From Solirubrobacteraceae bacterium (GTDB lineage: Bacteria; Actinomycetota; Thermoleophilia; Solirubrobacterales; Solirubrobacteraceae): a stretch of DNA of 22,823 nucleotides. The notes under the pieces were generated by a model that searched no databases, was not told the DNA's origin, and saw nothing but the letters and a program-made list of their open reading frames with translations. The position numbers were made by a program, and so were the translations under genes. The stretch lies in the NCBI GenBank assembly GCA_024710825.1, contig JANJUA010000365.1, positions 1 to 22,823 on the forward strand, read 5' to 3'. Shown here one piece after another: positions 5,459 through 19,766 of this stretch (position 1 is the stretch's first letter; each line of letters starts with the position of its first letter).

Positions 5459-6628
5459 TCAGCCGTCGAGGCCGGGCGAGAGTGCGCTGAGGCGTTCGTG
5501 GCCGCCCTCGACGACGGCGATCGGCTCGCCGATGTAGAAACAGAAGCCCGCGTCGACGTCGGTGATCCCGGCGAAGTAGAAGAAGGTCATGCCACGGCGC
5601 AACTCGCGGCCGTCGGTCGCCTTCAGGCGCAGCGGCTCGAGCCACGACGGCGGGTAGCCGATCCCTATGCCGTAGCCGACGTGGCGCCCGCCCCGGTCGA
5701 GCCCGGCGGCGCGCAAACCCGCCTGCACACGCTCCGAGAGCTCGAGGGTCGGCCGCCCCGGCTCGATCAGGTCCCGGGCGCCGTCGAGCGCCGAAATGAT
5801 CCCCTCGTGGACAGCCTTCATCCGGGCAGTCGGTATCCCCGCCACCCGCGAGTGCGCGCCGACGGCGTGGTACCGGCGAGACACGCCACCGATCTCGATC
5901 GTGACCGGATCGTTGGGCTGGATCACCCGGTCGCTCGCACCGACGTGGGTCTGCGACAGCGTTCGCGGGCCGGATGCGATCGGAGGGTGGACCGCCGAGA
6001 ACTCGCCGCCGGCCCGGTACATCGCGCTGGTCGCCGCCGCGTGTAGATCGCACTCGCGGACCCCCGGCGCGAGGATCTCGAACGCGGCCTCGAAGCCAGC
6101 GTCCATGACCTTACCCGCCTTGCGCATGTGAACGAGCTCGGCGTCGGACTTCTCGTGGCGGAGCTCGTTGACGATATCGGAGGCGTCGACCAGCTCGGCG
6201 TCGCCGGGGAACGCATCGCGCAGCATGTCGTAGTAGTACGGCTGGAGACTGTATGTCCGCCGCTCGATGCCGATCCGGACCCCAGGCTTCAGCAGCCCCC
6301 GTTCACGGAGGATGTCGACGGTAATCTGGCCCGGGTCGCGCGGGCTGTCGTCGAGCCAGGTGCGCACGTCGTCGAGGAACGGCGACTCGCGGATCAGATG
6401 CTCATCGGCGTTGCGGCAGAGCACCGTCGGCGACTCGTCCACCGCTGGCACCACAGCAGTCTGGTACACCCAGTAGCCGATCTGGTCGTATCCGTACAGG
6501 TAGTACAGGCTCTCTTGCTGGAAGAGCAGAACGGCGTCGAGGTTCGCCGCCTCCATAGCCAGGCGGAGTCGCGCCTGGCGGGCCGCGTACTCGGCCGGCT
6601 CGAACGCGAGCGGATTGATCTTCGTCAT
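5459..6628 (-). CDS. M24-family (pita-bread) hydrolase lacking metal ligands; ectoine-hydrolase/creatinase-like
   Basis: 389 aa from ATG 6628, chosen because AGAAGGA lies just upstream and the ATG overlaps the preceding stop (ATGA). The N-terminal domain has YLYGYDQIGYWVYQTAVVP and the C-terminal pita-bread fold spans about 165-380. Metal-dependent M24 peptidases need two Asp, one His and two Glu. Here those positions read IEIGGVSRRYHAVGAHSRV (245 region), HVGYGIGIGYPPSW (316-329), MTFFYFAGI and GFCFYIGEP, so the ligand set is not there. The YPPSW and IEIGG...RYH patterns resemble DoeA/EutD ectoine hydrolases and related Xaa-Pro-like proteins. In EutD, as I recall, a Glu is the nucleophile; Glu245 could take that part. 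It is the last gene of the M20-oxidase operon, so a substrate related to N-acyl or cyclic amidine amino acids is likely. Peptidase activity is unlikely. Confidence 0.8.
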   Translation of the reverse strand: MTKINPLAFEPAEYAARQARLRLAMEAANLDAVLLFQQESLYYLYGYDQIGYWVYQTAVVPAVDESPTVLCRNADEHLIRESPFLDDVRTWLDDSPRDPGQITVDILRERGLLKPGVRIGIERRTYSLQPYYYDMLRDAFPGDAELVDASDIVNELRHEKSDAELVHMRKAGKVMDAGFEAAFEILAPGVRECDLHAAATSAMYRAGGEFSAVHPPIASGPRTLSQTHVGASDRVIQPNDPVTIEIGGVSRRYHAVGAHSRVAGIPTARMKAVHEGIISALDGARDLIEPGRPTLELSERVQAGLRAAGLDRGGRHVGYGIGIGYPPSWLEPLRLKATDGRELRRGMTFFYFAGITDVDAGFCFYIGEPIAVVEGGHERLSALSPGLDG

Positions 6629-6981
6629 CGGTCCTTCTCTTCTAGTTCGGGAGTGGCGGCGCGGTGGCCCGTGGGGCTCCCCGCACCAGGCACGGCACCG
6701 CGATCGGCGGCGGGCTCGTCGCCGCGCAGCGGGGTCGCGGCGAGATCGCCGACCGTCAGCGGACGCGCCGGCAAGCGGTAGGTGAACGCGACCGCGCTCG
6801 GCGCCGACGGCAGCACCCAGTCGAACAGCGGACGGCAGGTGCGTCCCCCGCACATCCCCATACCGGCGCGCGAACGGTGCTTGAGCTGCGTGACGTTGAG
6901 GTCGTCCTCGGCAAGCGCCCTCCGGAGATCGCCGAGCGTGACGTCCTCGCAGCGGCAGACGATCACATCGTCGTCGGACAT
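6625..6981 (-). CDS. BFD-like [2Fe-2S] protein, subunit of the flavoprotein dehydrogenase
   Basis: 118 aa from ATG 6981, with GGAGG 4 nt upstream. Cys9, Cys11, Cys44 and Cys49 (VCRCED..., MGMCGGRTCRPL) form the C-x-C...C-x4-C set of bacterioferritin-associated-ferredoxin-like domains. In HcnB/OoxA-type proteins this domain is normally the C-terminal part of the FAD/NAD-binding subunit. Here it is a separate gene overlapping the end of that subunit's gene by 19 bp and overlapping the M24 start by 4 bp. About 65 further residues after the cluster are rich in Pro, Ala and Gly and resemble nothing I know. It probably relays electrons between the flavin subunits and an acceptor. Confidence 0.85.
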   Translation of the reverse strand: MSDDDVIVCRCEDVTLGDLRRALAEDDLNVTQLKHRSRAGMGMCGGRTCRPLFDWVLPSAPSAVAFTYRLPARPLTVGDLAATPLRGDEPAADRGAVPGAGSPTGHRAATPELEEKDR

Positions 6982-8195
6982 GCTCCCTCCCATCGGCGCT
7001 GCATCTCGCGCCGTCCTTCGATCACGTGCCGGTCAAACCGGACCGGTGCGGCGCGGCGGGCGCGCTCCAGCTCGTCGCGAGCGACAGCCACAGCCGACGC
7101 CGTCGCCCCTGGCGTGCGCAGGTACGCGGCCGCGGCGAGGCCGGCGACCGTGCCTTGGCGCTCGCACACGGCGGAACCCTCGACCCCGGTCGCGCCGCCG
7201 GCGACGTACAGGCCCGGGACGGTGGTCTGCTGGCGATCGCCGTGTAGCGGCACCGGCCCGCTCAGGCCGAGAACGTCGATGAGGCCGCAGCCGGTCGACC
7301 CGGTGAGCTCGATCAGCGGCTGCAGGCCCGCTCCCAGGCAGACGACGTCGACGTCGACCTCGCGCGCCGCGTCACGACGTGGCGTGCCGTCGCCGGAAAT
7401 CGGCGCGATCACCGCCGACTCGACGCGGTCGCCCCCCCGCAGCTCGAGGGCGACCTCGTCGAGCCGCAGCTCGACCCCGGCGATGCGGCAGGGAGCGAGC
7501 CGGGCCGCCAGCGTCGAGAGTGCCCGGCGCCGGGCGATCGCGCTGCCCCAGCGCGCCAGCCACGTCGGCGCCGCCCGACCGACGGTGTGCGCCAACTCGT
7601 GGAGCGAACCACCGGGAGTCGGAAGCGCCCCGAGTGCGCCGGACCAGGCGGCGTGAACCCCGACGACGTCGACGCCGGTCGCGCTGAGCACTTGCGCGAC
7701 CTCCAGCCCGAGCGGCCCGAGGCCGGCAACGAGCGCCCGCCCTCCCGGGACCACGCCGTGGACGTTGACCATCGTCTGCAGCCCGCCCGGCGTCATCACA
7801 CCGGGAAGCGTCCATCCGGGGAGCGGGGCGGGCACCTCGGTCGCGCCCGTGGCGAGCACGACGACCCGAGCGCCGCAGAACCGCGGGCCGTCGGCGGCGC
7901 CGTCGAGGAAGAGGTCCCACGCCGGCTCAAGACCCCACACGGTCGTGCCCGTGACGATCCCCACGCCGGCCTCGCCGGCGGCGGCTGTAAGCCGTTCCGC
8001 GTCGTCGCGGCCACTGTGCCACCGCCGGCCGTCGCCGTGGTGCACCTGGCCGGGTAGCCGACCGCCGGGCTGCATCCCCTCGTCGAAGACGACGGTGGTC
8101 AGCCCGAGGCGCGCGCCGGCGGTGGCCGCCGCCAGGCCCGCTGGGCCGGCCCCCACGACCGCGAGGTCCACGTCTAGTCGCGCGTCACCGGTCAT
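6963..8195 (-). CDS. FAD/NAD(P)-binding oxidoreductase subunit (HcnB/OoxA/LhpE-like)
   Basis: 410 aa from ATG 8195. It opens with the FAD-binding fold VDLAVVGAGPAGLAAATAGA, has the second nucleotide fold at ALVAGLGPLGLEVAQVL, and ends the FAD domain with VPGLYVAGGATGVEGS. It corresponds to the A/B subunit of hydrogen-cyanide synthase, opine oxidases and D-hydroxyproline dehydrogenase. It stops short of the BFD-type iron-sulfur domain that usually follows, which is encoded by the next gene. The start overlaps the previous gene's stop by 11 bp, indicating translational coupling. With its neighbours it should form a membrane-associated or soluble dehydrogenase for a secondary amine or imino/amino acid. 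The substrate cannot be read from the sequence. Confidence 0.85.
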   Translation of the reverse strand: MTGDARLDVDLAVVGAGPAGLAAATAGARLGLTTVVFDEGMQPGGRLPGQVHHGDGRRWHSGRDDAERLTAAAGEAGVGIVTGTTVWGLEPAWDLFLDGAADGPRFCGARVVVLATGATEVPAPLPGWTLPGVMTPGGLQTMVNVHGVVPGGRALVAGLGPLGLEVAQVLSATGVDVVGVHAAWSGALGALPTPGGSLHELAHTVGRAAPTWLARWGSAIARRRALSTLAARLAPCRIAGVELRLDEVALELRGGDRVESAVIAPISGDGTPRRDAAREVDVDVVCLGAGLQPLIELTGSTGCGLIDVLGLSGPVPLHGDRQQTTVPGLYVAGGATGVEGSAVCERQGTVAGLAAAAYLRTPGATASAVAVARDELERARRAAPVRFDRHVIEGRREMQRRWEGACPTTM

Positions 8196-8514
8196 GCGCC
8201 CGGCTCCCCCTCGGGTCGCGGTGGCGGCGGACCACCATGCCGGCCTCGACCGGGGTCAGGCAGGCCCGGCGCATGCCGGCGCCCTCGACGACGACGCGAC
8301 ACTCGAGGCACTGGCCTATCGCGCAGTAGAGCCCGCGCGGCTCGCCGCGGCGCGAGACCCGCAGCGTACGGATCCCGGCGGCCAGCAGCGCCGCGCCGAG
8401 CGACTCGCCCGCGTGGGCGGTCACCGGCGTTCCCTCGAACGAAAACTCGACCTCGGGACCCCGTTCGAAAGGACCGAGCAGGGGGTGCTCGGCGAGCCGT
8501 ATCGGCTGATTCAT
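8185..8514 (-). CDS. (2Fe-2S)-binding protein, small dehydrogenase subunit (HcnA/LhpF-like)
   Basis: 109 aa from ATG 8514. Cys64, Cys69, Cys72 and Cys85 (LYCAIGQCLECRV, then RRACLTPV) give the C-x4-C-x2-C-x12-C spacing of plant-type [2Fe-2S] ferredoxin domains as found in HcnA-like subunits and the N-terminus of sarcosine oxidase alpha. The ATG overlaps the TGA of the upstream oxidase gene (ATGA), and the 3' end overlaps the FAD-binding subunit by 11 bp. The complex of this protein with the two flavoproteins and the BFD protein carries electrons from an amine substrate to the respiratory chain or another acceptor. Confidence 0.85.
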   Translation of the reverse strand: MNQPIRLAEHPLLGPFERGPEVEFSFEGTPVTAHAGESLGAALLAAGIRTLRVSRRGEPRGLYCAIGQCLECRVVVEGAGMRRACLTPVEAGMVVRRHRDPRGSRAHDR

Positions 8515-9641
8515 GTCGCCGTCCCGTCGTCGATGTTGTCCACGGTCCCGGTCGCCGAGAACCGCTCCATCCCGAACGGCTCGAGCACGTCCGGGCGCTG
8601 GCCGCTCGCGATCCACCGCGCCATCCGCCGGGCCACCGCGGGAGCGAGCCCGAACCCGTGCCCGGACGAGCCGGCGGCGACGAACAGCCCGGGAAGCCCG
8701 GGCGTTTCGCCGATGATCGGCATCTGGTCGATGCTGACGTCGAGCACACCACCCCAGGCCCGGATCACGGTCAGGTCGGCGAAGATCGGGAAGGCGGCGA
8801 TCGCCTTCCGTGACGCACGGACCGCATCGGCCCCGAACACCTCGTTGCCCGAGCGCACGTAGTCCTCGGTCAGGTCGCCGTAGAGCAGGTTGCCGCTCAC
8901 GGTCTGGCGGGTGAAGGTCTTGTGGTCCCAGTCCTGGACGAACTGGTCGAACAGCGGCGGCAACGGCTCCGTGACCATCGTCTGGACCCGGGCGTTGAGG
9001 ATCGGCAGCGAGAAGCCCGCCCAGTTACAGACCTCGACCGCTCCGGAGCCGGCCATGTTGACGACGACCTCCGCCTCCAGCGTGCCACGCGGGGTCGGCA
9101 CCCGCCAGCCGTAGGCGATGCGCTCGAGGCCGGTCGCCGGTGTTCCCTCGAGAATCTCGGCGCCTCGACGGCGGGCGGCCCCAGCAAAAGCCAACGTGCT
9201 CAGCAGCGGGTTCGCGTGTCCGTCGTGGGGACAATAGAGCGCGGCCTTCGCCGTCGGCCCGACGATCGGCAATAGCTGCTCAAGCTCGCGCCGCTCGACG
9301 ATCCGGCTGTCCAGGTCAAACCCCTCCTGGCGGGCCAAGCGGTTCTCGATCCGGGCGAGCTGCTCGTCGGACCCACCGATCAGCAAGTTGCCGCGGCGCG
9401 TGTACTCGGTCGGCGCGGCCAGCTCGGCGTCGAGATGCGGCCAGAGCTCCAGCGCCTCCATCGCCAGCGGGATCTCCGGGCGCACCCGGCCCTGCTGACG
9501 AACGCCGCCGGTGTTGCGTCCTGAGCCGGCGTCGCCGACTCCGCGCCGCTCGAGCACCGTGACGGCGCGCCCCTCCGCGCGAAGGTAGTACGCGAGGGCG
9601 CACCCCTGCACGCCTCCGCCGATGACGATGACATCCGGCAC
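8511..9641 (-). CDS. FAD-dependent amine/amino-acid dehydrogenase, catalytic subunit (DAO family, HcnC/OoxB/LhpB-like)
   Basis: 376 aa if it starts at GTG 9641, immediately before the dinucleotide-binding motif DVIVIGGGVQGCALAYYLRA. The Shine-Dalgarno is weak, and no ATG exists between the upstream stop at 9701 and this point. A DAO-type fold follows, with GSGRNTGGVRQQGR near residue 45 and a C-terminal FAD contact region IGETPGLPGLFVAAGSSGHG. It is the catalytic subunit type that oxidises sarcosine, glycine, D-proline/hydroxyproline or opines. It lies 60 bp after the M20 hydrolase and overlaps the ferredoxin gene by 4 bp, so the hydrolase product may be the oxidase substrate. Assignment of family is firm; substrate unknown. 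Confidence 0.88.
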   Translation of the reverse strand: MPDVIVIGGGVQGCALAYYLRAEGRAVTVLERRGVGDAGSGRNTGGVRQQGRVRPEIPLAMEALELWPHLDAELAAPTEYTRRGNLLIGGSDEQLARIENRLARQEGFDLDSRIVERRELEQLLPIVGPTAKAALYCPHDGHANPLLSTLAFAGAARRRGAEILEGTPATGLERIAYGWRVPTPRGTLEAEVVVNMAGSGAVEVCNWAGFSLPILNARVQTMVTEPLPPLFDQFVQDWDHKTFTRQTVSGNLLYGDLTEDYVRSGNEVFGADAVRASRKAIAAFPIFADLTVIRAWGGVLDVSIDQMPIIGETPGLPGLFVAAGSSGHGFGLAPAVARRMARWIASGQRPDVLEPFGMERFSATGTVDNIDDGTAT

Positions 9642-9700
9642 GGCGTCAAGCGGCGTGGGAGACGGCCGGAGCGGCAGCGGCCCGCGCGGCAGGCGAGCGC

Positions 9701-10891
9701 TCAGGCATCGAGCACCCCACGCAGCGCGGTGATCGTGAGCACCCGGGCGCCGCCGATCGCGACGTCGATTGCTCCGGGTGCCATCGCGGCGGCCGCGAAC
9801 TCCGGCGAGTGCAAGCCGGTGCCGCGTGGCGCCAGCTGGACACCAACCTCCAGGGCACGGGTGGCCTGGCTGACGTTGCCGAAGTCCGTCGAGCTGATCG
9901 AAATCGCCTCGACGTCCGGCTCGAGCGCGTAACCGCACTCGCCCATGACCTCCTTGGCGACTTCGACCAGCGCCGGGTCCTGGCGGATCTCCGCATAGAG
10001 CGGTGCGTACTCGCGCGCGTCGAACCCGCAGCCGGAGGCTAGCGCCACGGCTCGCGCAGCGTCGACTATGCACTCCTTCAGCGCGTCGACCTCGGGAACG
10101 GTCGGCGCACGCAGGCGGTAGCGCAGCCGGGCGTAGTCGGGGACGACGTTGGCGCTCTCACCGCCCTCGGGGATGATCGCGTTCATGTAGTGGCCCCGCG
10201 GCAGCTGATCGCGTAGACGGGTGATCGCGACGTACGCGCTGACGGCGGCGTCGAGGGCGTTGAGGCCGCGGCCGGGGCTGGCGACGGCGTGGGTGGCTCT
10301 ACCGCGGAACTCGAAGTCGATGCCCCGCGCCGCGAGGCTTCCGTGGAGTACGACCATGTCGCGGTCGTACGGATGCAGCATCAGCGCGGCGTCGATGCCC
10401 TCGAAGACGCCTGCCTCGAGCAGACGGACCTTGCCGCCTGCGCCGTCGACGGCGCTCTCCTCGGCGGGACAGCCGATCAGCTCGACGGTGCCGTGCGGCA
10501 GCATCCGCGCCAAGGTGAGGTAGGCGCCGATCGCCACGGTGGCGATCACGTTGTGGCCGCACGCGTGGCCGAGCCCGGGAAGCGCGTCGTACTCCGCCAG
10601 GATCGCCACCCGCGGTCCGGAGGTCATGCCGACGGTCCGAGCCCGGAACGCGGTGTCCATGCCGGCCAGGCCGACCTCCGCCTCGTGGCCGTGCGCCCCG
10701 AGCAGCCGCACGAGCTCGGCCACCGCGTGGTGCTCCTGATAGCCGAGCTCGGGGTTCGCGCCGATCGAGCGGAGGACCCCGTCGAGCTCGTCGCGCAGGA
10801 CGTCGAGCTCCCGGTCGACGTGCGCCCGCAGGGCAGCGATGCCGGACGACGACGTCGGCGCGGCTGCGCACGGTTGCTCATTCACGGTCAC
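9701..10891 (-). CDS. M20-family amidohydrolase, copy A
   Basis: 396 aa from GTG 10891, with GGAGG 9 nt upstream; a longer in-frame reading to 11101 is rejected because it runs through the conserved leader. Zinc-hydrolase motifs of the M20D type are present: EYDALPGLGHACGHN (100-114, Cys111 and His113), CPAEES (Glu145), LHPYDRD (His173) and a C-terminal TGLHSPEF His. A dimerisation domain follows the middle (FRGRATHAVASPGRGLNALD). The group includes AbgB/aminobenzoyl-glutamate hydrolases, IAA-amino-acid hydrolases and PM20D2 dipeptidases, so it should cleave an N-acyl or peptide-like amide in the cytoplasm. It is strongly similar to the second copy at 15625-16818. It opens the operon that continues into the flavoprotein dehydrogenase and the M24 hydrolase. 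Confidence 0.88.
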   Translation of the reverse strand: MTVNEQPCAAAPTSSSGIAALRAHVDRELDVLRDELDGVLRSIGANPELGYQEHHAVAELVRLLGAHGHEAEVGLAGMDTAFRARTVGMTSGPRVAILAEYDALPGLGHACGHNVIATVAIGAYLTLARMLPHGTVELIGCPAEESAVDGAGGKVRLLEAGVFEGIDAALMLHPYDRDMVVLHGSLAARGIDFEFRGRATHAVASPGRGLNALDAAVSAYVAITRLRDQLPRGHYMNAIIPEGGESANVVPDYARLRYRLRAPTVPEVDALKECIVDAARAVALASGCGFDAREYAPLYAEIRQDPALVEVAKEVMGECGYALEPDVEAISISSTDFGNVSQATRALEVGVQLAPRGTGLHSPEFAAAAMAPGAIDVAIGGARVLTITALRGVLDA

Positions 10892-10936
10892 GATCAGAAG
10901 CCTCCAGGAGCGGGGCCCGTACGACGAGAGAAGAGG

Positions 10937-10977: not shown

Positions 10978-10993
10978 GCTGCCCGAGAGGAGC

Positions 10994-11018
10994 GGCTTCG
11001 CCGACCGGTTGGCGAGCC
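10994..11018. terminator. Hairpin after the carbon-nitrogen hydrolase gene
   Basis: GGCTTCGCC and GGCGAGCC pair with one bulged base around an 8-nt loop (11003-11010). It lies 29 bp past the stop of the hydrolase gene and before the leader element, so it may separate the transporter operon from the M20-oxidase operon. There is no T-run. Confidence 0.4.
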
Positions 11019-11046: not shown

Positions 11047-11946
11047 TCAGCCACGGTTGCGATTGTGGCCGGTCGCCGCGGCGAGCTCGGCAGCCGACCA
11101 AACGCCGCCGTAGACGTCCCGGCGCCGATCATCGAGCCGGTCGTTCGTCGCGTTCCAGCGCCGGGCGGCACGTGCCCGTCGCAGGTCGACGTCGGCGTAC
11201 AGGATTTCCTCGGCGTGCTCCCCCGCCGGCCCGGCGATCGGCCGGCCGTCGGGGTCGACCACCACGCTTTGCCCGATGAAGGCCTGGCCGCGCTCGGTCC
11301 CGACGCGGCTGGCGGTGGCGACGTACAGCGCGTTGACGTGCGCCCCCGCGACGCAGAGCACGTTGGCCATCGCGAGCGGCTCGACCGGCGACGGGTACGG
11401 CAACCAGTTGGTGGGGATGCAGACGATCGCCGCATCCTGCTCCGCCGCGGCGCGGAAGCTCTCCGGGAACCAGGTGTCGTAGCAGACGATCATGGCGATC
11501 CGACCGATGGGCAGGTCGAAGACCGGCAGGCCGCGGTCACCAGGCCGGAAGTGGTCATGCTCGCCGTCCCAGACGTGCAGTTTCCGGTAGGTACCGATAT
11601 GCCCGCCTGGGCCGATCACCACCGCCGAGTTGTACACCGCGTCGCCGTCGCGCTCGCAGACCCCCGCCACGAGGTACAGGTCGAGCTCCGCGCAGAGCGC
11701 CTCCCACGCCGTGCACGAGCGCCCGCCGGGGAACGGCTCGGCCAGCGCCGCCGACTCGCTCGGATCGTGGAACACGTAGCCGGAGTTGCACAGCTCCGGC
11801 AGCACCATCAGGCGCGCGCCGCCCGCCGCGGCCGTCCGGATCAGCTCCGACGACCGCGCCAGGTTGTGCGCCGGGTCGCCGACCCGGGGCTCCATCTGGA
11901 GGCAGGCGACCCGCAGCTCACCGGTCTCGGGGCGCGCGCCGGTCAC
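11047..11946 (-). CDS. Carbon-nitrogen hydrolase (nitrilase superfamily)
   Basis: 299 aa from GTG 11946, chosen because it overlaps the permease stop (GTGA) and places the first strand LRVACLQMEPRVGD at residue 11; an ATG at 11976 would overlap the permease by 34 bp. The Glu-Lys-Cys triad is visible: LPELCNSGY (Glu51), YRKLHVWD (Lys122) and IVCYDTWFPE (Cys155). Such enzymes hydrolyse amides, N-carbamoyl compounds or, rarely, nitriles, in the cytoplasm. Its place as the last gene of the importer operon suggests that it acts on the imported compound or an early intermediate, for example an N-carbamoyl or omega-amide group. The sequence does not let me choose between amidase, carbamoylase and nitrilase. 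Confidence 0.88.
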   Translation of the reverse strand: MTGARPETGELRVACLQMEPRVGDPAHNLARSSELIRTAAAGGARLMVLPELCNSGYVFHDPSESAALAEPFPGGRSCTAWEALCAELDLYLVAGVCERDGDAVYNSAVVIGPGGHIGTYRKLHVWDGEHDHFRPGDRGLPVFDLPIGRIAMIVCYDTWFPESFRAAAEQDAAIVCIPTNWLPYPSPVEPLAMANVLCVAGAHVNALYVATASRVGTERGQAFIGQSVVVDPDGRPIAGPAGEHAEEILYADVDLRRARAARRWNATNDRLDDRRRDVYGGVWSAAELAAATGHNRNRG

Positions 11947-12935
11947 GCCGTGCTCCGCGCCGCCTTGCGGGCCCACTGATCGAGAGCGACGGCCACGATG
12001 ATGATCGCCCCCTGCACCACCGACTGGTAGAAGGGGTTGATGCCGAGCAGGTTGAAGCCGTTGTTGATCAGCGCGATCAGCAGCACGCCAAGCACCGACC
12101 GCCAGACTGCGCCCTCACCACCGTAGATGCTGGTGCCGCCGATCACGATCGCGGCGATCGCCGACAGCTCGAGGCCGACGCCGCCCGCCGCGCTCCCGGT
12201 CGCGTCCTGCGACGCGGCAAGCATCCCGGCGATGCCGGCGCACATGCCACTGATCGCGAAAGTCGCGACCCGGATCCGGTTGACGTGGATGCCCGACAGG
12301 CGGGCCGCCTCGGGGTTGCCGCCGACCGCGTAGACGTAGCGGCCGAACGCCGTGCGCGCGAGGACGAACCCGAGCGCGACGGCGGCCGCAGCGAAGATCC
12401 AGATGGTGAACTTCATGGAGAACAGCTCGTAGGTCCCTGCGACGGTGAACGCGTCGCTCGTGACCGCGACCAGGAACCCGCCAGTCAGCAGCGTGGCGAT
12501 CCCACGGAACACGTAACTGGACGCGAGCGTCGCGATGAACGTGTTCACTCGCAGCCGGGTGATGATCATCCCGTTGACCACACCGAGCAGCACCCCGGCA
12601 AGGATGCCCGCAAGCAACCCTACGATCGGGTCGACGTGGTTGGCGACCCCGGCCGCGGCAACGCTAGCGAAGGCGAAGATAGCCCCGACCGACAGGTCGA
12701 AGCCACCGGCGATGATTACCAGGGTGCCCCCGCAGGCGATGATCCCGACCATCGCGCTCTGGTCGAGGATGTTCAGCAGGTTCGTCGAGGTTAGGAACGC
12801 CGACGATGACAGGCTCAGGGCGACGAACAGGACGACGAACGTGACGACAATTCCGTAGTCGCGGATCCGACCAAGGCGGCCCTCACCGCCAGATCGCCCG
12901 ATCGCAGTGCTAGGCACCGTTTGGAGAAGTTTCAT
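11943..12935 (-). CDS. ABC importer permease, ribose/sugar type (RbsC-like)
   Basis: 330 aa from ATG 12935, which overlaps the ATPase stop (ATGA). It is strongly hydrophobic with roughly eight to ten membrane segments. Family landmarks are GGFDLSVGAIFAFASV, NGMIITRLRVNTFIATL, YAVGGNPEAARLSGI (the cytoplasmic loop contacting the ATPase) and SAIAAIVIGGTSIYGGEG. This carbohydrate-uptake-2 type is best known for pentoses, but members carry autoinducer-2, nucleosides, purines and polyols. In this context an N-containing small molecule, possibly a glycoside or nucleoside-like compound, is as likely as a sugar. Confidence 0.9.
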   Translation of the reverse strand: MKLLQTVPSTAIGRSGGEGRLGRIRDYGIVVTFVVLFVALSLSSSAFLTSTNLLNILDQSAMVGIIACGGTLVIIAGGFDLSVGAIFAFASVAAAGVANHVDPIVGLLAGILAGVLLGVVNGMIITRLRVNTFIATLASSYVFRGIATLLTGGFLVAVTSDAFTVAGTYELFSMKFTIWIFAAAAVALGFVLARTAFGRYVYAVGGNPEAARLSGIHVNRIRVATFAISGMCAGIAGMLAASQDATGSAAGGVGLELSAIAAIVIGGTSIYGGEGAVWRSVLGVLLIALINNGFNLLGINPFYQSVVQGAIIIVAVALDQWARKAARSTA

Positions 12936-14452
12936 GCTGCAACCTGCGCTGTTTCGGTGCCGAACGCGGCGTGCATCACGCGCTCCGGATTGGCGTCTTC
13001 GCGAGATAGCTCCCGGGCGATCCGCCCCTGGCGCATGACGAGCACACGGTGCGCCAGCCCCAGAACCTCCTCGAGCTCGGACGAGATCACCAGCACGCCC
13101 ATCCCCTCGCCCGCGAGGCCGGCGATGATCTCGTAGATCGCGAGCTTCGCCCCGATGTCGACGCCCCGGGTCGGCTCGTCGGCGATCAGGACCTTCGGGT
13201 GCCGCAGCAACCACTTGCTGAAGAGCACCTTCTGCTGGTTTCCGCCCGAGAGCGTTCCGACGATCTGCCGGGGGTCCCCGGGACGGATGTCGAACTCGTC
13301 GATCGCCCGCGCCACCTCGGCCCGCTCCCGATGCGGCTGCACCACCCCGCGGCGGGTGATCGTGTGCAGGTGGGCCATCGTCACGTTGCGGGCGACTGTC
13401 GCGTCGACGAACAGTCCCTCGTCCTTGCGGCTCTCGGGGATCAGCGCGATCCCCGCGTCGATCGCGTCTTTCGGGCTGCGCATGACGACCGGCTCGCCGT
13501 CGACCTCGACGGTTCCGGCGTCGAGCTGATCGGCGCCAAAGAGCGCGCGAGCCAGTTCGCTGCGCCCGCTGCCGACCAGGCCGGCGAGGCCAACGATCTC
13601 TCCCGCCCGTATCTCGAGCGAGACGTCGCGTAGGACGTCGGAGCGACGAACCCCCCGCGCCGACAGCACCACGGGCGCGTCAGGACTGCAGGGAGCGATC
13701 GTGGGGAACGCGCTCTGGAGCGAGCGCCCGAGCATGGCCTCGACAAGTTGCGGCGCGCTGATCTCCGCGGCCGGGCGCGTGGTGACCAACTCGCCGTTGC
13801 GCAACACGGTGATCGCGTCGGCGATCTCCTTCACCTCCTCGAGCCGGTGTGACACGAAGACGATCGTGGTGCCGCGCTCGCGGAGACGCTTGATCGCCGC
13901 AAGCAGGTGCTCGACCTCGTCGACGCCGAGCGCCGCCGTCGGCTCGTCCATCACGACCAGCCGGGCGTCACGCGCCACGGCGCGCATGATCTCGACCTTC
14001 TGCTGCTCGCCAGTGCGCAGCACACCGACGGAGCCGATCGGCGAGACGTTGAAGCGCAGGCTCTCCCTCAGCTCGTCGAACCGACGACGCATCGCGCGGG
14101 CGTCCGGCAGCCCGCGACGGCGTGGCTCGCGACCCAGGAACACGTTCTCGACCGCGGTGCGCGCCGGAACCAGCGCAATCTCCTGCTGGATCGCGGCGAT
14201 GCCCGCGGCAAGCGCGTCGGCCGGCGACCGGAACGTCACCGGTACGCCGTCGACGCGCATCTCGCCGTCGTCAGGGCGGACGACGCCGGCGATCACCTTT
14301 CCGAGAGTCGACTTCCCCGCCCCGTTCTCGCCGACGAGCGCGTGGACCGTCCCCGGGGTGATGTCGAGGTCGATGCCGGTGAGCGCCGTGACCCCGGAGA
14401 ACCGCTTGCCGAGGCCACGGACGCTAACGAGTGGGGTTTCTACGTGTGCCAT
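12932..14452 (-). CDS. ABC importer ATPase with two nucleotide-binding domains (RbsA-like)
   Basis: 506 aa from ATG 14452, which lies inside the end of the binding-protein gene (13-bp overlap). Domain 1 has Walker A GENGAGKST (41-49) and Walker B LVVMDEPTAAL; its signature region reads LRTGEQQKVEI, a departure from the usual LSxxxQQ. Domain 2 has the degenerate Walker A typical of this family (GLVGSGRSELARALFG), a full signature GTLSGGNQQKVLFSKW and Walker B VLIADEPTRGVDIGAK. It energises the permease encoded next. The longer open frame to 14986 only overlaps the binding-protein gene and is not used. Confidence 0.92.
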   Translation of the reverse strand: MAHVETPLVSVRGLGKRFSGVTALTGIDLDITPGTVHALVGENGAGKSTLGKVIAGVVRPDDGEMRVDGVPVTFRSPADALAAGIAAIQQEIALVPARTAVENVFLGREPRRRGLPDARAMRRRFDELRESLRFNVSPIGSVGVLRTGEQQKVEIMRAVARDARLVVMDEPTAALGVDEVEHLLAAIKRLRERGTTIVFVSHRLEEVKEIADAITVLRNGELVTTRPAAEISAPQLVEAMLGRSLQSAFPTIAPCSPDAPVVLSARGVRRSDVLRDVSLEIRAGEIVGLAGLVGSGRSELARALFGADQLDAGTVEVDGEPVVMRSPKDAIDAGIALIPESRKDEGLFVDATVARNVTMAHLHTITRRGVVQPHRERAEVARAIDEFDIRPGDPRQIVGTLSGGNQQKVLFSKWLLRHPKVLIADEPTRGVDIGAKLAIYEIIAGLAGEGMGVLVISSELEEVLGLAHRVLVMRQGRIARELSREDANPERVMHAAFGTETAQVAA

Positions 14453-15543
14453 TCGGCGTTGAAGGGCTTCTTGGTCTTCTGGTCGAACGACGGACCGATC
14501 GGGCTCAGCTCGCGGACGTTGACGTTGGTCTCGTCCGTCGGCAGCTCCTGACCCCGCACCGCCTTGATCACGAGCTCGGCGTCGAGCCGACCCTCGGTGT
14601 ACGGCAGGTAGAGCAGGGTGGCGAACCAGTCGCCGGCCTTGACTGCCTCGATGCCCTGCTTCGAGGCGCCGGTGCCGATGAGCGAGATCTCGCCGAGCTT
14701 GCCGACGCCCTTGACGGCGTCTTGCGCCCCGACCGTCATCTGATCGCCGGACGTCGCGATTACGTCCACATCGGGGTGCGCCTGGAGGATGTCCTGCGCG
14801 GCCTTGCGCCCGTTGGGTCGGAGGAAGTCTCCCTGCCCAGACGCCACCAGCTCGACCTCCGGCGCGCTCGACGCGGCGAGCGTCTTCTTCAGCGCTCGGA
14901 TCGATGCTTGCTCGGTCGCCACCGCGAAGTTGCCGTAGATGAACGCCGCCTTGCACGGGTCGGCACCCGCGTGCTCCGTCTTGCATGCCTCGATGATCGT
15001 CTCGGCCAGCGCGTTGCCGTCCCGCGGCTGCTCGTGCCAGACCGTTGCGAGGACACCGTCGACCTGCGGCTTGCCCTGGAGCGGGTCGGAGCCGATCGGT
15101 GCCTGTCCGGCCACGACCTTGATCCCCTTGGCGATCGCCTTCTTGATCGGCTGGATCACCGTGGTGCCATCGACGACGAGCACGACGTAGGCGTCGAACT
15201 TGCCGGTCGCGTTGGCGTCCTGGATTTGCGCCGCCTGTGTGCGTCCGTCGAACTTGCCGTCGAAGGTCGAGACCTCGACCTCGCCCATCTCCGCGGCCTG
15301 TTCCTTGATCCCCTTCACCACGGCCTGGCCGTAGGTATTGGCGGTCGAGGTCATGAAGACCGCGATCCTGACCTTCTTGTTGGGATCAGCCTTGGCCGCG
15401 GCGCCGGAGCCGGTCGTCTTCTCGGTGCCTGAGCTGACGGCTCCACAGCCGGTGACCGCGGCACCAAGGGCGACGACCGTCAGCGCCAGGCCCCAGCGAC
15501 GCCCTGTGCGCGCGAACGGCCTGTACGTACGAGAACCTCTCAT
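14440..15543 (-). CDS. ABC importer substrate-binding lipoprotein (periplasmic-binding-protein family 4)
   Basis: 367 aa from ATG 15543, with GGGAGAG just upstream. The N-terminus is a lipoprotein signal: basic start, hydrophobic WGLALTVVALGAAV and lipobox VTGC with Cys33, so the mature protein is anchored outside the membrane. The two-lobed sugar-binding-type fold starts at KKVRIAVFMTSTANTYGQAV and includes DAYVVLVVDGTTVIQPIKKA, DVDVIATSGDQMTVGAQDAV and WFATLLYLPYTEGRLDAEL. It heads the transporter genes, 82 bp after M20 copy B with a GC-rich hairpin between, a common way of raising binding-protein expression. The ligand is unknown; surrounding enzymes argue for a nitrogenous compound. Confidence 0.9.
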   Translation of the reverse strand: MRGSRTYRPFARTGRRWGLALTVVALGAAVTGCGAVSSGTEKTTGSGAAAKADPNKKVRIAVFMTSTANTYGQAVVKGIKEQAAEMGEVEVSTFDGKFDGRTQAAQIQDANATGKFDAYVVLVVDGTTVIQPIKKAIAKGIKVVAGQAPIGSDPLQGKPQVDGVLATVWHEQPRDGNALAETIIEACKTEHAGADPCKAAFIYGNFAVATEQASIRALKKTLAASSAPEVELVASGQGDFLRPNGRKAAQDILQAHPDVDVIATSGDQMTVGAQDAVKGVGKLGEISLIGTGASKQGIEAVKAGDWFATLLYLPYTEGRLDAELVIKAVRGQELPTDETNVNVRELSPIGPSFDQKTKKPFNAEWHT

Positions 15544-15571
15544 CTCTCTCCCTCGTGTCTGGGGGATGGCA

Positions 15572-15590
15572 CCGCCGGGGGGCCCGGCGG
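15572..15590. promoter_or_regulatory. GC hairpin between M20 copy B and the binding-protein gene
   Basis: Perfect 8-bp stem CCGCCGGG/CCCGGCGG with a 3-nt loop, 29 bp upstream of the binding-protein start. It could be an mRNA-stabilising or partial terminator structure. The nearby string TCACAGCGCG on - (15600-15609) resembles the TCACAGTGCG motif of the M20/pucR leaders with one change. Confidence 0.4.
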
Positions 15591-15624
15591 CCAGATCGAC
15601 GCGCTGTGAGAAGCGCGATGTCGC

Positions 15625-16818
15625 CTACGCCGCGAGGACCCCTCTCAGGGCCGTCAGGGCGAGAATGCGGGCGCCGCCGACGGCCACGTCGGTCGCGCCG
15701 GGGCCTATGGCGGCCGCAGCAAAGTCGGGGGTGTGCAGGCCGGTGCCGCGCGGCGCCAGCTGGACGCCGATCTCCAGCGCGCGGGTGGTCTGGCTGACGT
15801 TGCCGAAGTCGGTCGATCCGACAGAGATCGACCCGCCGTCCGGCTCCACTGTGTAGCCGCAGGCGTCCATCACCTCACGGGCCACGGCGACCAGTTCGCG
15901 ATCCGGGCGCATCTCGGCGTAGAGGGGGGCGAACTCGCGCACCGTAAACTCGCAGCCGGCGGTCGTAGCGACGTCCCGGGCGGCGGTGACTACGCGGTCG
16001 CGTAGTGCGTCGACCTCGGGGACGGTCGGGGCACGCAGGCGGTAGCGGATGCGCGCCCAGGAGGGGATCATGTTGGCGCTCTCGCCGCCCTCGGGGATGA
16101 TCGCGTTCATGTAGTGGTCGGGGGGCAGCTGGTCGCCGAGGCGCTGGATCGCCACGAACGCGTCGACCGCGGCCTCCAGGGCGTTGATGCCGGCACCCGG
16201 GTCGGCGACGGCGTGGGCCGGCCGACCGCGGAACTGGAGGTCGACGCCGCGCGCCGCGAGGTTGCCGCGGGTGACCACCATGTCGCGGTCGTAGGGGTGG
16301 GCCATCAGCGCCGCGTCGACGCCGTCGAAGACGCCGGCTGCAAGCAGGCGGACCTTGCCGCCCGCGCCGTCGACGGCACTCTCCTCCGCGGGACAGCCGA
16401 TCAGCTCGACCGCCCCACGCGGAAGGACGCGAGCGAGCGCTAGGAATGCGCCAACGGCGACGGTCGCGATCACGTTGTGCCCGCAGGCGTGCCCGAAGCC
16501 CGGCAGCGCGTCGTACTCCGCCAGGAACGCCACACACGGTCCCGCGGTCCCGCTGTCGACGCGCGCGCGAAAGGCGGTGTCCATCCCGGCCAGGCCGACC
16601 TCGGCCTTGTGCCCGTAGGCGGCCAGCAGGCCGACCAGCTCGGCCACCGCGTGGTGCTCCTGGTACCCAAGCTCGGGGCGCTCGCCGATCGAGCGCAGCA
16701 CGCCGTCAAGCTGCGGCCGCAGGCCGTCGAGCTCGCGGTCGATGCCGGTCCGCCCGTCGGCGACCCCCACGCCGGACGGCGTCGTCTCGCACGCGTCCTG
16801 CTCTTGGATCCCGGTCAC
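15625..16818 (-). CDS. M20-family amidohydrolase, copy B
   Basis: 397 aa from GTG 16818; no clear Shine-Dalgarno precedes it. It is a close paralogue of copy A along its whole length: identical runs such as LGYQEHHAVAELV, AEVGLAGMDTAFRAR, CGHNVIATVA and QLAPRGTGLH. Zinc-site motifs are EYDALPGFGHACGHN (Cys112, His114), CPAEES, MAHPYDRD and TGLHTPDF. The differences cluster in the N-terminal 30 residues and in scattered surface positions, so both are probably active with related substrates. It stands between the imidazolonepropionase-like gene (107 bp upstream) and the ABC importer operon, and has the same leader element as copy A. Confidence 0.88.
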   Translation of the reverse strand: MTGIQEQDACETTPSGVGVADGRTGIDRELDGLRPQLDGVLRSIGERPELGYQEHHAVAELVGLLAAYGHKAEVGLAGMDTAFRARVDSGTAGPCVAFLAEYDALPGFGHACGHNVIATVAVGAFLALARVLPRGAVELIGCPAEESAVDGAGGKVRLLAAGVFDGVDAALMAHPYDRDMVVTRGNLAARGVDLQFRGRPAHAVADPGAGINALEAAVDAFVAIQRLGDQLPPDHYMNAIIPEGGESANMIPSWARIRYRLRAPTVPEVDALRDRVVTAARDVATTAGCEFTVREFAPLYAEMRPDRELVAVAREVMDACGYTVEPDGGSISVGSTDFGNVSQTTRALEIGVQLAPRGTGLHTPDFAAAAIGPGATDVAVGGARILALTALRGVLAA

Positions 16819-16865
16819 GCGGAGCAGGATCGAGCAGTGCCCGCAAAAGTGGGAGAGGGGACGAT

Positions 16866-16904
16866 CACAGTCTCGCCCCCGCCGAAATGGAACTTCTCAC
16901 TGGC
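16866..16904 (-). promoter_or_regulatory. Conserved leader element of M20 copy B
   Basis: Read on -, CAGTGAGAAGTTCCATTTC, then GGCGGGGGCG and GACTGTGA, aligned base for base with the copy A leader apart from a few changes and one extra base. The paired motifs (CACAGTC at 16866-16872 and CACTGGC at 16898-16904 on +) are less symmetrical than in copy A. Confidence 0.5.
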
Positions 16905-16924
16905 CCCGGCCGGGGCGAACGTGC

Positions 16925-18205
16925 TCAGGTGGGTCGGCTGGCGGCGGCCCCGAGCACCGGACGACCGTTGATCACGACCTCGTCGAGCAGCGGCCGGCCG
17001 ATCCCCAGGCAGACGGCGTCGGGGTGCGGCGCGTCGAGCAACAGCAGGTCGCCGCGCTTGCCAACGTCGAGCGAGCCGCGGTCGTGGTTGCGGCCCAGTG
17101 TGTATGCCGCGTTGAGCGTGGCGCCGACGATCGCCTCTCCGGGCAACATGCCGTACCAAGGAGCGGCGAACGCCACGGTGTGCAGCAGCGACGTGGCGTG
17201 GATCGATGAGGAGAAGTCGGTGGCGATCGCGACTGGCACACCGCTATTCACGAACGCGCGCGCCTGCGCGCGGCGATCGCAGAGGTAGGTCAGCTCCGCA
17301 ACCGGCAAGAGCACGGCAATCGTGTCGGCGGCGCCGACCTCGCGGATCGCAGACGCCGGTGTGTAGGTCAGGTGGTCGGCGCAGACGGCTCCGCCCGCGA
17401 CCGCGGTCTGCCACCCCTCGGACGGCGACCATGCGTCAGCGTGGACCCGGGTGGCAATTCCCAGTTCGCGCGAGCGGTCGAGCATCCGTGCCACCTGGGC
17501 GGGCGTGAACAGGCCTTCCTCGCAGGTCACGTCGTGGTACTCCGCCATTCGCCCGGCGACGACCGCCGGCAGCATCTCATCGAGGACCATGTCCGTGTAG
17601 CGGTCTCCGTCGGAGACGTCGGGCGGCACGACGTGTGCCCCGAGGAACGAGATCACGAGGTCGATCGGAGTGATCGCCCGCGACGCCTCCAGCAACCGCA
17701 GGGCGTGCAGCTCGTGTTCGACGGTCAGACCGTAGCCCGACTTGACCTCGAGTGTGGTCACTCCGCCGCGGAGGATGTCGTCATAGGCGCGCGCGGCGCT
17801 GGCCAGCAGCACGTCGTCCGATGCGTTTCGCGTCGCCTCGACGCTCTTCCAGATGCCCCCGCCGGAGGCCGCGACTTCCTGGAGCGTGGCTCCGGCGAGG
17901 CGCGCGGCGTACTCGTTGCAGCGCTCGCCCGCGAAGAGTGGGTGGCTGTGGCACTCGACGAGTCCGGGCATCACGGTGCGACCGGTGGCGTCGATGCTCC
18001 GCACCCCGTCGTCGCCGAACCGCGCGAGGACATCCGCGGTGGGCCCGACCGCCGCGATCACGCCGTCGCGGATCGCGACCGCGCCATCGGCGAGCAGGTC
18101 CATCTCGCCCTGCTCGGCGCCGCGCCGCGGTTCGCCGCGGTCGAGCACGCGCACCAGCTGCGCGGCGTGGATGACGTTGAGATCGGAGGCGCTTCGGTCG
18201 GGCAT
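16925..18205 (-). CDS. hutI: Imidazolonepropionase-like amidohydrolase (HutI family)
   Basis: 426 aa from ATG 18205. It is an amidohydrolase-fold metal enzyme: CHSHPLFAGER (His86, His88), KSGYGLTVEHEL, LGAHVVPPD (His191), HADAW (His255), CADHLTYT (His278) and ATDF (Asp330). These, with overall pattern and length, match HutI, which opens the ring of 4-imidazolone-5-propionate to N-formimino-glutamate. The metal-site Asp is followed by SSS, whereas imidazolonepropionases normally carry Asn-Pro-Gly after TDx. No urocanase, histidase or formiminoglutamase gene is nearby. The true substrate may be a related cyclic amide, such as imidazolone-acetate or a hydantoin-like ring. It is transcribed divergently from the aspartase-type gene. 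Confidence 0.8.
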   Translation of the reverse strand: MPDRSASDLNVIHAAQLVRVLDRGEPRRGAEQGEMDLLADGAVAIRDGVIAAVGPTADVLARFGDDGVRSIDATGRTVMPGLVECHSHPLFAGERCNEYAARLAGATLQEVAASGGGIWKSVEATRNASDDVLLASAARAYDDILRGGVTTLEVKSGYGLTVEHELHALRLLEASRAITPIDLVISFLGAHVVPPDVSDGDRYTDMVLDEMLPAVVAGRMAEYHDVTCEEGLFTPAQVARMLDRSRELGIATRVHADAWSPSEGWQTAVAGGAVCADHLTYTPASAIREVGAADTIAVLLPVAELTYLCDRRAQARAFVNSGVPVAIATDFSSSIHATSLLHTVAFAAPWYGMLPGEAIVGATLNAAYTLGRNHDRGSLDVGKRGDLLLLDAPHPDAVCLGIGRPLLDEVVINGRPVLGAAASRPT

Positions 18206-18343: not shown

Positions 18344-18350
18344 TGGCACG

Positions 18351-19766
18351 ATGCCGCCCACACGCCGCGAACACGACCTGCTCGGGGAGCGCGATGTCCC
18401 GGCCGACGCGCTGTGGGGCATTCACAGCCTTCGCGCCCAAGAGAACTTCGCCCTTAGCGGTGTCAGCGTCAGCGATCACCCACGGCTCGTCATCGGCCTG
18501 GCGGCCGTGAAGGAGGCGGCGGCGTTGGCCAACCACACACTCGGGCTCCTGGACGGCGAGCGGACCGAGGCGATCCTTGCTGCGTGCGAGGAAATCCGCC
18601 GCGGCCGGTTACACGACCAGTTCGTGGTCGACGTCGTCCAGGGTGGCGCCGGAACCTCGACGAACATGAACGCCAACGAGGTGATCGCGAACCGCGCCCT
18701 CGAACGGCTGGGGCGTCCGCGCGGCGCCTACGAGCACCTCCACCCCAACGAGCACGTCAACCTCTCGCAGTCCACTAACGACGTGTATCCGACCGCCGTG
18801 CGGCTGGCGACGATCGAAGGTCTGGCAAGTCTGCGGAGCGCACTGCTGCGGCTCGCCGCGGGCCTGCGCGAGCGTGGTGACGAGCACCACGACGCCGTCC
18901 GGCTGGGCCGCACACAGCTGCAGGACGCGGTGCCAACGACGTTCGGCCGCACGTTCGTCGCTCACGCCCACCTGATCGAGGACGCGGCGGCCGAGCTCGA
19001 GCGCAGCGCCTCCCCGCTCCACACGGTGAACCTCGGGGGGACGGCGATCGGTACCGGAATTGCCGCGCCGGCGCCGTTCGGCGATCTCGCTTGCGAGCAG
19101 CTGGCTCGGATCGTCGGGCGTCCGGTGCGACCGGCGGTCGACCGGGTCGCCGCCACCCAGGACACCGGCGGGCTGGTTCAGGCTTCGGCTGCGACCCGTC
19201 GCGTAGCGGTCGTGCTATCGCGGTTGGCCAACGATCTGCGACTCCTCGGATCGGGTCCAGCCGGGGGTCTCGGCGAGTTGCGGCTGCCCGCGGTCCAGGC
19301 CGGGTCCTCGTTGATGCCTGGGAAGGTCAATCCGGTGATCCCTGAGCTCGTCAACCAGGTAGCGTTCGAGGCGATCGGTCGCGACCTGACGGTGACGCTC
19401 GCCGCCGAGGCCGGGCAGCTGGAACTCAACGCGTTCGGTCCGACAATCTTCCGGGCGGTGGACCAGAATCTGAGTCAGCTCGCTTCAGCGTGCGACCGGC
19501 TGAATACGCGCTGCGTCGCCGGTATGGTACCTGTGGTGACGCGGGCGCGGGAGGCCGTGGAGCGCTCCCCGGTCGCGCTGGTCACGGCGCTCGCGCCGCG
19601 GATCGGTTATGCGGCCGCGACGTCGATCGCCAAGAAGGCGGCGACAACCGGACAGTCGATTGCCGAGCTGGTAGCCGCCGACGGCCTGCTCGAAGCGGCG
19701 GAGTGGGATGCGGTGGTCGCCGACGCGGGAGGCATTTCGTTGGCGCCGGCGGAGGGCGCTAGCTGA
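18351..19766 (+). CDS. aspA: Aspartate ammonia-lyase (aspartase/class II fumarase superfamily)
   Basis: 471 aa from ATG 18351; longer readings extend back across the divergent hutI-like gene and are rejected. It follows aspartase end to end: EHDLLGERDVPADALWGIHS, GGAGTSTNMNANEVIANRAL, HPNEHVNLSQSTNDVYPT, GRTQLQDAVPTTFG, and the superfamily catalytic loop GSSLMPGKVNPVIPE (318 on) with its Ser. Length equals that of typical aspartases (about 470). The expected reaction is L-aspartate to fumarate and ammonia, in the cytoplasm, feeding the TCA cycle and nitrogen supply. The neighbouring catabolic genes suggest it handles aspartate (or an aspartate-like product) released by them. Superfamily members also act on fumarate, N-substituted aspartates or ergothioneine, but motif agreement favours aspartase. 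Confidence 0.88.
   Translation: MPPTRREHDLLGERDVPADALWGIHSLRAQENFALSGVSVSDHPRLVIGLAAVKEAAALANHTLGLLDGERTEAILAACEEIRRGRLHDQFVVDVVQGGAGTSTNMNANEVIANRALERLGRPRGAYEHLHPNEHVNLSQSTNDVYPTAVRLATIEGLASLRSALLRLAAGLRERGDEHHDAVRLGRTQLQDAVPTTFGRTFVAHAHLIEDAAAELERSASPLHTVNLGGTAIGTGIAAPAPFGDLACEQLARIVGRPVRPAVDRVAATQDTGGLVQASAATRRVAVVLSRLANDLRLLGSGPAGGLGELRLPAVQAGSSLMPGKVNPVIPELVNQVAFEAIGRDLTVTLAAEAGQLELNAFGPTIFRAVDQNLSQLASACDRLNTRCVAGMVPVVTRAREAVERSPVALVTALAPRIGYAAATSIAKKAATTGQSIAELVAADGLLEAAEWDAVVADAGGISLAPAEGAS

Follow-up and report, generated by a model that had tools for sequence, protein, structure and literature searches.

We analysed a 22,823-nucleotide stretch of DNA, hereafter the window, which is one contig (C435; JANJUA010000365.1) of a Solirubrobacteraceae genome assembly (G000; GCA_024710825.1; 444 contigs, 3.04 Mb, 90.2% complete, 2.3% contaminated) and has a G+C content of 71%. 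Twelve intact minus-strand genes run consecutively at 5459–18205 in an operon-like arrangement, the subject of this report. Read from the HutI end, they encode a HutI-like hydrolase, the amidohydrolase M20b, the binding protein, double ATPase and permease of an importer, a nitrilase-superfamily amidase (CN_hydrolase), the amidohydrolase M20a, the DAO, Fer2, Pyr_redox and BFD subunits of a flavoprotein dehydrogenase, and an M24 hydrolase. Plus-strand genes for a PucR-family regulator and for aspartate ammonia-lyase (aspartase) lie on the two sides, both divergent from the operon (Table 1). All genes named in a preliminary description of this DNA were found open and inside the interval assigned to the island, including its five hydrolases (M24, M20a, CN_hydrolase, M20b and HutI-like); the aspartase kept its identity, and its gene, on the plus strand, points away from that of the HutI-like protein. 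The combination of genes, for which that description knew no pathway, is likewise without a description in the open-licence literature that we searched.

With start codons that we chose among the candidates, five of the eleven junctions are four-base ATGA/GTGA overlaps (M24/BFD, BFD/Pyr_redox, Fer2/DAO, CN_hydrolase/permease and permease/ATPase), two are overlaps of 11 and 13 bases, and four are gaps of 59–155 bases, so that the earlier wording of near-continuous overlaps was slightly generous. The HutI-like gene is the first of the operon and is separated from the next gene by 106 bases. The twelve genes presumably form a single transcript. Their grouping is more than chance, because seven of the genes described here recur together in another genus.

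Table 1. Features of the operon and its flanking genes, with positions in the window.
Feature	Position	Strand	Evidence
PucR-family transcriptional regulator	3791..5401	+	PF07905 75.6 bits, PF13556 63.8 bits; 47% identical PucR at same place in Conexibacter arvalis
M24 creatinase/ectoine-hydrolase-like, metal-ligand-less	5459..6628	-	PF00557/PF01321; best NCBIfam NF038259 ectoine_DoeA_2 212.6 bits (below cut-off of 575)
BFD-type [2Fe-2S] subunit	6625..6966	-	PF04324 41.9 bits, cut-off 26; four Cys; GTGA/ATGA overlaps
FAD/NAD-type alpha, HcnB-like subunit (Pyr_redox)	6963..8195	-	PF07992 59.3 bits; soxA 80.1 bits, below cut-off
Small [2Fe-2S] HcnA-like subunit (Fer2)	8185..8514	-	PF13510 91.6 bits; C-X4-C-X2-C-X12-C motif
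DAO-family catalytic HcnC/proline-dehydrogenase-beta-like subunit	8511..9641	-	PF01266 225 bits; 1y56_B 126 bits; RAW motif
M20D amidohydrolase a (M20a)	9701..10891	-	TIGR01891 182.2 bits, cut-off 153.75
Nitrilase-superfamily amidohydrolase (CN_hydrolase)	11047..11946	-	PF00795 180 bits; NF040852 206 and TIGR03381 142 bits, both below cut-off
CUT2-type permease	11943..12935	-	PF02653 (BPD_transp_2) 157 bits
CUT2-type double ATPase	12932..14452	-	PF00005 (ABC_tran), two stretches
Ribose-type substrate-binding protein	14440..15543	-	PF13407 (Peripla_BP_4) 122 bits; D-allose substrate-binding protein model 67.6 bits, cut-off 335
M20D amidohydrolase b (M20b)	15625..16818	-	TIGR01891 182.5 bits, cut-off 153.75; solved relatives HmrA 204, Xaa-Arg dipeptidase 158 bits
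HutI-like hydrolase, separate clade predicted outside histidine degradation	16925..18205	-	TIGR01224 344.9 bits, cut-off 298.15
Aspartate ammonia-lyase	18348..19766	+	NF008909 605 bits, cut-off 510; PF00206 279 bits

The HutI-like protein and its clade

The HutI-like protein scores over the curated cut-off of the imidazolonepropionase model, but it sits in a separate clade and is probably not the ordinary HutI-family ring opener for which the preliminary description took it. We surveyed HutI and urocanase (HutU) in 61 genomes, the window's own and 60 relatives. HutI was over the cut-off in 15 of them and HutU was present in 14, all HutI-bearing; the exception is the window genome, where no urocanase was found (a miss is possible, the genome being about 90% complete).

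Residues conserved in ordinary HutI are changed in the clade. From 92 HutI loci we retained 87 as ordinary, after dropping two weak matches (L110, L111) and excluding the window itself (L145) and two clade members (L035, L036); these sequences are mostly from Hymenobacter. The clade was represented by the window protein and 119 others, the best-scoring of 4351 homologues, and its uniformity is in part a product of this selection. A Tyr found in 87/87 ordinary sequences is Leu in 119 of the 120 clade members and Val in one, an equally invariant Gln (87/87) is Ala in all 120, an invariant Asn (87/87) is Cys or Ser in all 120, and the Gly following this Asn (87/87) is Ser in 117. The N-P-G-[ST] loop is replaced by S-S-S-I in the window (C-S-S-I in most of the clade), and in the alignment it is one residue shorter in the window protein, L035 and L036. 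The Arg, Tyr, His and metal-binding positions are kept. We located the corresponding residues in the HutI structures 2bb0, 2puz and 2oof (the Gln position is Glu in 2bb0), where the changed positions presumably line the substrate pocket.

In the tree, a long branch (1.08) lies between the clade and ten ordinary HutI proteins. The window protein falls, with four other loci of the same family, inside a 29-member group (support 0.999). Its own five-member subgroup differs from the rest at five further positions, and a histamine dehydrogenase or omega-aminotransferase-type gene is present in three of the four loci nesting with the window protein. We conclude that the HutI-like gene and its clade very probably lie outside histidine degradation, because no urocanase was found and conserved residues are changed. 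The prediction extends to at least 120 protein clusters, which are called imidazolonepropionase wherever a source name is given.

The clade is sparsely distributed. In surveys that scored the first few candidates per genome, members (E <1e-120) occurred in 9 of 298 genomes of the Acidimicrobiales (the order of genome G614) and in 5 of 232 genomes of the window's order, the window included; an even sample of 396 genomes across the phylum contained no further one. We examined the neighbourhoods of 13 clade loci outside the window. An oxygenase-type gene was present in 12 of the 13, from four families (flavin monooxygenase [FMO]-like, acyl-CoA dehydrogenase [ACAD]-like, HpaB-like and Rieske), RidA in 11, and an amine-oxidising gene in 10 (histamine dehydrogenase in eight, an omega-aminotransferase-type gene in two more). 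Eight of the nine Acidimicrobiales loci carry an ArgE-type M20 gene, and five carry a full Pot-type importer gene set together with LysR. The dehydrogenase of L174 scored 957 bits to the solved histamine dehydrogenase 3k30 vs 504 to trimethylamine dehydrogenase, and the other seven histamine dehydrogenases were 68–84% identical to it. The same neighbour queries gave no match above 100 bits in 73 ordinary HutI loci, which are likewise mostly from Hymenobacter with few independent. This gene context points to a specific reaction, a step of bacterial histamine breakdown: the clade probably hydrolyses imidazolone-acetate, opening the ring to give N-formimidoyl-aspartate. No HutI-type enzyme of the histamine pathway was described in the titles and abstract starts of the open-licence literature searched.

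Several of these loci deserve mention in their own right. In L173, L174, L175, L177 and L178, all from Acidimicrobiales, a conserved series of genes for LysR, a Pot-type importer, an ArgE-type M20, an oxygenase-type flavoprotein, RidA, the HutI-like protein and histamine dehydrogenase looks like a complete histamine utilisation operon, of which we found no description in the literature searched. L179 and L180 combine the HutI-like gene with a Rieske oxygenase, FMO, M20 and RidA, and are without histamine dehydrogenase; L179 additionally encodes an aldehyde dehydrogenase and members of the PALP and ornithine-cyclodeaminase families (those of EutB and EutC). Their content hints at a different imidazole substrate. 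L189 (1532–10079) brings together an HpaB-type oxygenase, the HutI-like protein, RidA and two unlike amine-oxidising enzymes next to each other, histamine dehydrogenase and a primary-amine oxidase that exceeds its curated cut-off.

The core module shared with Conexibacter arvalis

The flavoprotein dehydrogenase has the complete domain set of the HcnABC/proline dehydrogenase type, with DAO, Pyr_redox, Fer2 and BFD; the BFD subunit is separate, as noted in the preliminary description. Its closest solved relative on the DAO side, 1y56_B, is deposited as sarcosine oxidase, and we take it to be a proline dehydrogenase subunit. The small subunit and the DAO subunit contain the motifs C-X4-C-X2-C-X12-C and Arg-X-Trp (here RAW), respectively. 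Together with C-X-C-X15-20-C-X4-C, these are the motifs that the available text of PMC4575208 reports for opine, hydroxyproline and proline dehydrogenases containing flavin. The four Cys of the BFD subunit have a long spacing of about 32 residues, vs 15–20 in the published motif. The complex is a predicted amine-type dehydrogenase, whose substrate is not readable from sequence.

The M24 protein was correctly described as metal-ligand-less: in a profile alignment to prolidase 1pv9, its five ligand positions are E, V, Y, F and G, and DoeA is similar. Profile alignments to 6twk and 1pv9, with the window sequence, indicate a metal-less M24 fold with R-Y-H-A and Y-P-P-x-W as in DoeA. The family profile scored 208 bits to DoeA (6twk) vs 78 to creatinase (1chm), which disfavours an assignment as creatinase. 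Neither cut-off of the two curated ectoine hydrolase models was reached (212.6/575 and 153.1/613 bits). The two M20 proteins are paralogues with 73–74% identity, as had been suggested, and belong to a narrow M20D group: among the homologues listed, 61% or more is reached by these two, by one from C. arvalis and by three others, the next being at 54%. The importer is a full RbsABC-like system of the CUT2 type, with Peripla_BP_4, double ABC_tran and BPD_transp_2 domains.

We compared 30 kb of the corresponding locus in C. arvalis (G024), a relative of the same family. PucR (47% identity), M24 (72%), Pyr_redox (53%), Fer2 (61%), DAO (61%) and M20D (66%) are shared, and a BFD subunit (PF04324) is also there. 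The conserved synteny elsewhere that the preliminary description proposed to look for is found for a seven-gene core, but not for HutI, CN_hydrolase, the CUT2 permease, the binding protein or aspartase, none of which had a match in these 30 kb. Instead, the C. arvalis locus has a Pot-type (polyamine-type) importer and ectoine-utilisation-like genes that stay below the cut-offs of their models, EutA-like at 181.9 of 318 bits and EutE-like at 64.4 of 402.7 bits. As a whole, the island is a mosaic and not one fixed set.

Among the 232 genomes of the order, with the first few candidates per genome scored, close M24 homologues (>850 bits) occurred only in the window and C. arvalis, and three more genomes had distant ones at 205–226 bits. 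DoeA-like M24 genes in 15 other stretches had a PotA-like ATPase in seven and a DAO-type match in six (within about 3 kb), with no HutI, Fer2 or M20D match among those reported. The DAO-type neighbour suits an M24 enzyme whose product is an amine that a DAO-type dehydrogenase would take up as its substrate. In three loci of one genus (L192, L197 and L198), the DoeA-like M24 gene adjoins a DAO-type oxidoreductase gene and the rest of the core is not there; L193, from a fourth genome of this genus, had no DAO match. Among plasmid records, the best M24 match (Microvirga, 47%) is surrounded by transposases and unrelated genes, and of three further neighbourhoods, one of them unannotated, the other two had no HutI, Hcn-type or M20 gene by annotation.

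Elsewhere in the window, a partial tyrosine recombinase at the contig start (2–520, minus strand) is XerC-like at 68 bits, below the model cut-off, and is overlapped by an open reading frame with an integrase SAM-like domain (343–1083). The interval 2595–3690 holds a minus-strand reading frame with a ParB-type helix-turn-helix, whose GIY-YIG match was below cut-off, and a plus-strand one with only the C-terminal helix-turn-helix of PucR, possibly the remnant of a second PucR directly upstream of the intact one. Past the aspartase gene, 20401–21700 contains minus-strand reading frames for a drug-exporter-type ABC ATPase and a plus-strand ferritin/Dps-like protein (21098–21700). For the aspartase itself the mechanical reading frame starts at 17853, and the family match begins near the Met at 18348. 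Scans of the window found no tRNA and no Rfam family.

Proposed pathway and alternative explanations

Judged by the neighbours of its relatives, the HutI-like gene of the window most likely encodes an imidazolone-acetate hydrolase that acts in histamine/imidazoleacetate catabolism. The aspartase next door fits, because this catabolism ends in aspartate. For the operon as a whole, we tentatively propose that it may import and degrade a compound that includes or gives rise to an imidazole side-chain acid of the histamine/imidazoleacetate type. The ribose-type ABC system would import a conjugated or N-acylated imidazole compound, from which the two M20D enzymes and the nitrilase-type amidase would strip acyl or amide groups. 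The four-subunit Hcn-type flavoprotein would then oxidise the amine, taking the role of the histamine dehydrogenase, copper amine oxidase or aminotransferase of related loci. The HutI-like enzyme would hydrolyse the lactam of 4-imidazolone-5-acetate to N-formimidoyl-L-aspartate, a further hydrolase (candidates are the amidine-type M24 or an M20) would free L-aspartate, and aspartase would convert it to fumarate and ammonia. Ring oxidation is not encoded in the window; either it is encoded elsewhere, or the imported compound already has the imidazolone ring. Imidazole-acetate and histamine derivatives, which the preliminary description had listed among possible substrates, are favoured by the clade analysis. 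Its broader idea that the cluster imports and fully mineralises one nitrogen-rich compound is supported as far as the intact operon-like set, the importer, the hydrolases, the amine-type dehydrogenase and the fumarate route go; the set is not a fixed one, and full mineralisation of a single compound is inferred.

A number of observations count against this proposal. By tblastn with queries from the clade loci, no RidA, oxygenase, histamine dehydrogenase, copper amine oxidase or aminotransferase was found in the window. In the window genome, histamine dehydrogenase queries gave two weak pieces (best 28.5 bits) and the HpaB-type oxygenase had no match in a search that had no positive control, the FMO, ACAD-like and Rieske types not having been searched genome-wide. 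The C. arvalis locus has the PucR/M24/Hcn/M20D core and no HutI-like gene, so the substrate of the core needs no HutI-like step. Among the clade loci, L179 and L180 lack histamine dehydrogenase, L187 (6.3 kb) an amine-oxidising gene, and L186 both RidA and an oxygenase, by the queries used; moreover, the ACAD-like flavoproteins that we counted as oxygenases are only presumed to be so, since Pfam gives acyl-CoA dehydrogenase domains. In favour of the proposal, a HutI-like homologue (P0124, 74%) and an M20D homologue (P0244, 66%) have the same listed contig number (two) and length of the longest contig (12,814 bases), which suggests a HutI-like/M20D link in a second organism; against it, this agreement is a coincidence of listed numbers and not an observed contig, and P0002, the closest M24 homologue, is on a contig of 30,872 bases, a length not found among 120 listed M20D homologues. 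The operon-wide imidazole reading is less certain because the oxygenase and RidA were not found here and the core exists without the HutI-like gene.

The operon might instead represent a Gram-positive ectoine-like pathway, which we consider rather unlikely: M24 would open an ectoine-type ring, M20D deacylate, the Hcn-type complex oxidise an amino acid, and the HutI-like protein be accessory. The closeness of M24 to DoeA and the EutA-like and EutE-like genes of the C. arvalis version speak for it, as do, in the available text of PMC13188858, the provisional Gram-positive ectoine clusters with pucR, eutD and a putative amidohydrolase gene abgB, and an ectoine breakdown that likewise ends in aspartate. 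On the other hand, M24 is far under both ectoine hydrolase cut-offs, and the window proteins scanned have no PALP, ornithine-cyclodeaminase, aldehyde-dehydrogenase or aminotransferase domain and hence no sign of eutB, eutC, ssd or atf. AbgB is presumably an M20 protein. The ectoine-like pathway also leaves the HutI-like gene unexplained. It is unlikely, too, that two unrelated modules are merely adjacent, with the HutI-like and aspartase genes left over from a histamine-type pathway and a substrate of its own for the M24/Hcn/M20 core. The C. arvalis core without a HutI-like gene, the position of the HutI-like gene at the start of the operon and its distance from the next gene would agree with this, and no M24, Fer2, DAO or PucR match was reported for the 13 other HutI-like loci; the shared strand and short gaps argue otherwise, the M20 adjoining the HutI-like gene belongs to the narrow M20D group of the core, and HutI-like and M20D homologues may share a contig elsewhere (P0124/P0244).

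We regard as improbable a pathway for arginine or guanidine adducts, in which the HutI-like enzyme would open a creatinine-like or hydroimidazolone ring, the creatinase-like M24 remove the amidino part, the Hcn/opine-type complex the N-alkyl group, and the carbamoyl-type nitrilase act on the ureido product. The bond type is the same, the lactam of an imidazolone. No oxygenase is required, and none of the types searched is in the window; Xaa-Arg dipeptidase is among the relatives of M20b, the amidase is similar to N-carbamoylputrescine amidase (142 bits, under the cut-off), and Hcn-type complexes include dehydrogenases for the arginine opines nopaline and octopine (PMC4575208, available text). 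Against it, the HutI-like protein nests among histamine-linked enzymes and M24 is closer to DoeA than to creatinase. It is likewise improbable that the operon degrades a preformed imidazolone without an oxygenase, such as arginine-derived hydroimidazolones (glycation adducts) or a creatinine-like compound. Ring opening would then fall to a HutI-like enzyme recruited from histamine catabolism, cleavage of the amidino group to the creatinase/DoeA-like M24, and removal of the N-alkyl part to the Hcn/opine-type complex; if ring oxidation is truly absent from the genome, the imported preformed imidazolone becomes the more interesting reading. Ordinary histidine utilisation, with the HutI-like protein as imidazolonepropionase, was rejected on the HutI/HutU census and the residue changes: the family cut-off is exceeded, but the urocanase present in 14 of 14 other HutI-bearing relatives was not found in this genome, about 90% complete, and conserved residues are changed, so that we hold it to be very improbable.

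Comparison with known systems

The HutI-like protein shares with imidazolonepropionase HutI (TIGR01224; 2bb0, 2puz, 2oof) the family score, the metal-binding His/Asp and the conserved Arg, Tyr and His, and differs in Tyr to Leu, Gln/Glu to Ala, the shorter S-S-S-I in place of the NPG loop, and a genome in which no urocanase was found. The closest described histamine pathway that we compared is the hin set of Pseudomonas putida U, with an FAD-monooxygenase (EC 1.14.13.5), two amidases, an enamine deaminase and aspartase (PMC6467879, available text). The window shares with it amidases and aspartase (HinI), the latter a predicted activity in the position of the last step. Relatives of the window's HutI-like gene add a RidA-family gene comparable to the enamine deaminase HinL, and often a flavin monooxygenase-type gene comparable to HinF. 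The gene table of the hin set contains no HutI-like enzyme (PMC6467879). The window, in turn, gave no tblastn match for the amine-oxidising enzymes, ring monooxygenase and RidA of a hin-type operon, and has M24, M20D, an Hcn-type complex and a ribose-type importer. It thus puts an enzyme of the HutI-like clade in a different operon, together with an Hcn-type dehydrogenase and an ectoine-hydrolase-like enzyme.

The dehydrogenase resembles the HcnABC, opine, D-hydroxyproline and L-proline dye-linked dehydrogenases in its DAO, Pyr_redox and small [2Fe-2S] subunits with the published motifs, and differs in that the BFD domain, with its longer Cys spacing, forms a fourth subunit of its own; a supplement legend of the same source names a delta subunit (PMC4575208, available text). 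With ectoine hydrolase DoeA/EutD and the Gram-positive pucR-eutD-abgB clusters, the window has in common a metal-less M24, PucR, an amidohydrolase and a route to aspartate (PMC13188858, available text), whereas its M24 scores far below the ectoine models, the proteins scanned give no sign of eutBC, ssd or atf, and an Hcn-type complex, a nitrilase and a HutI-like enzyme are added. Versions similar to this PucR/M24/M20 module were called provisional ectoine catabolism in that 2026 paper, and the window may offer a route to the substrate of the module.

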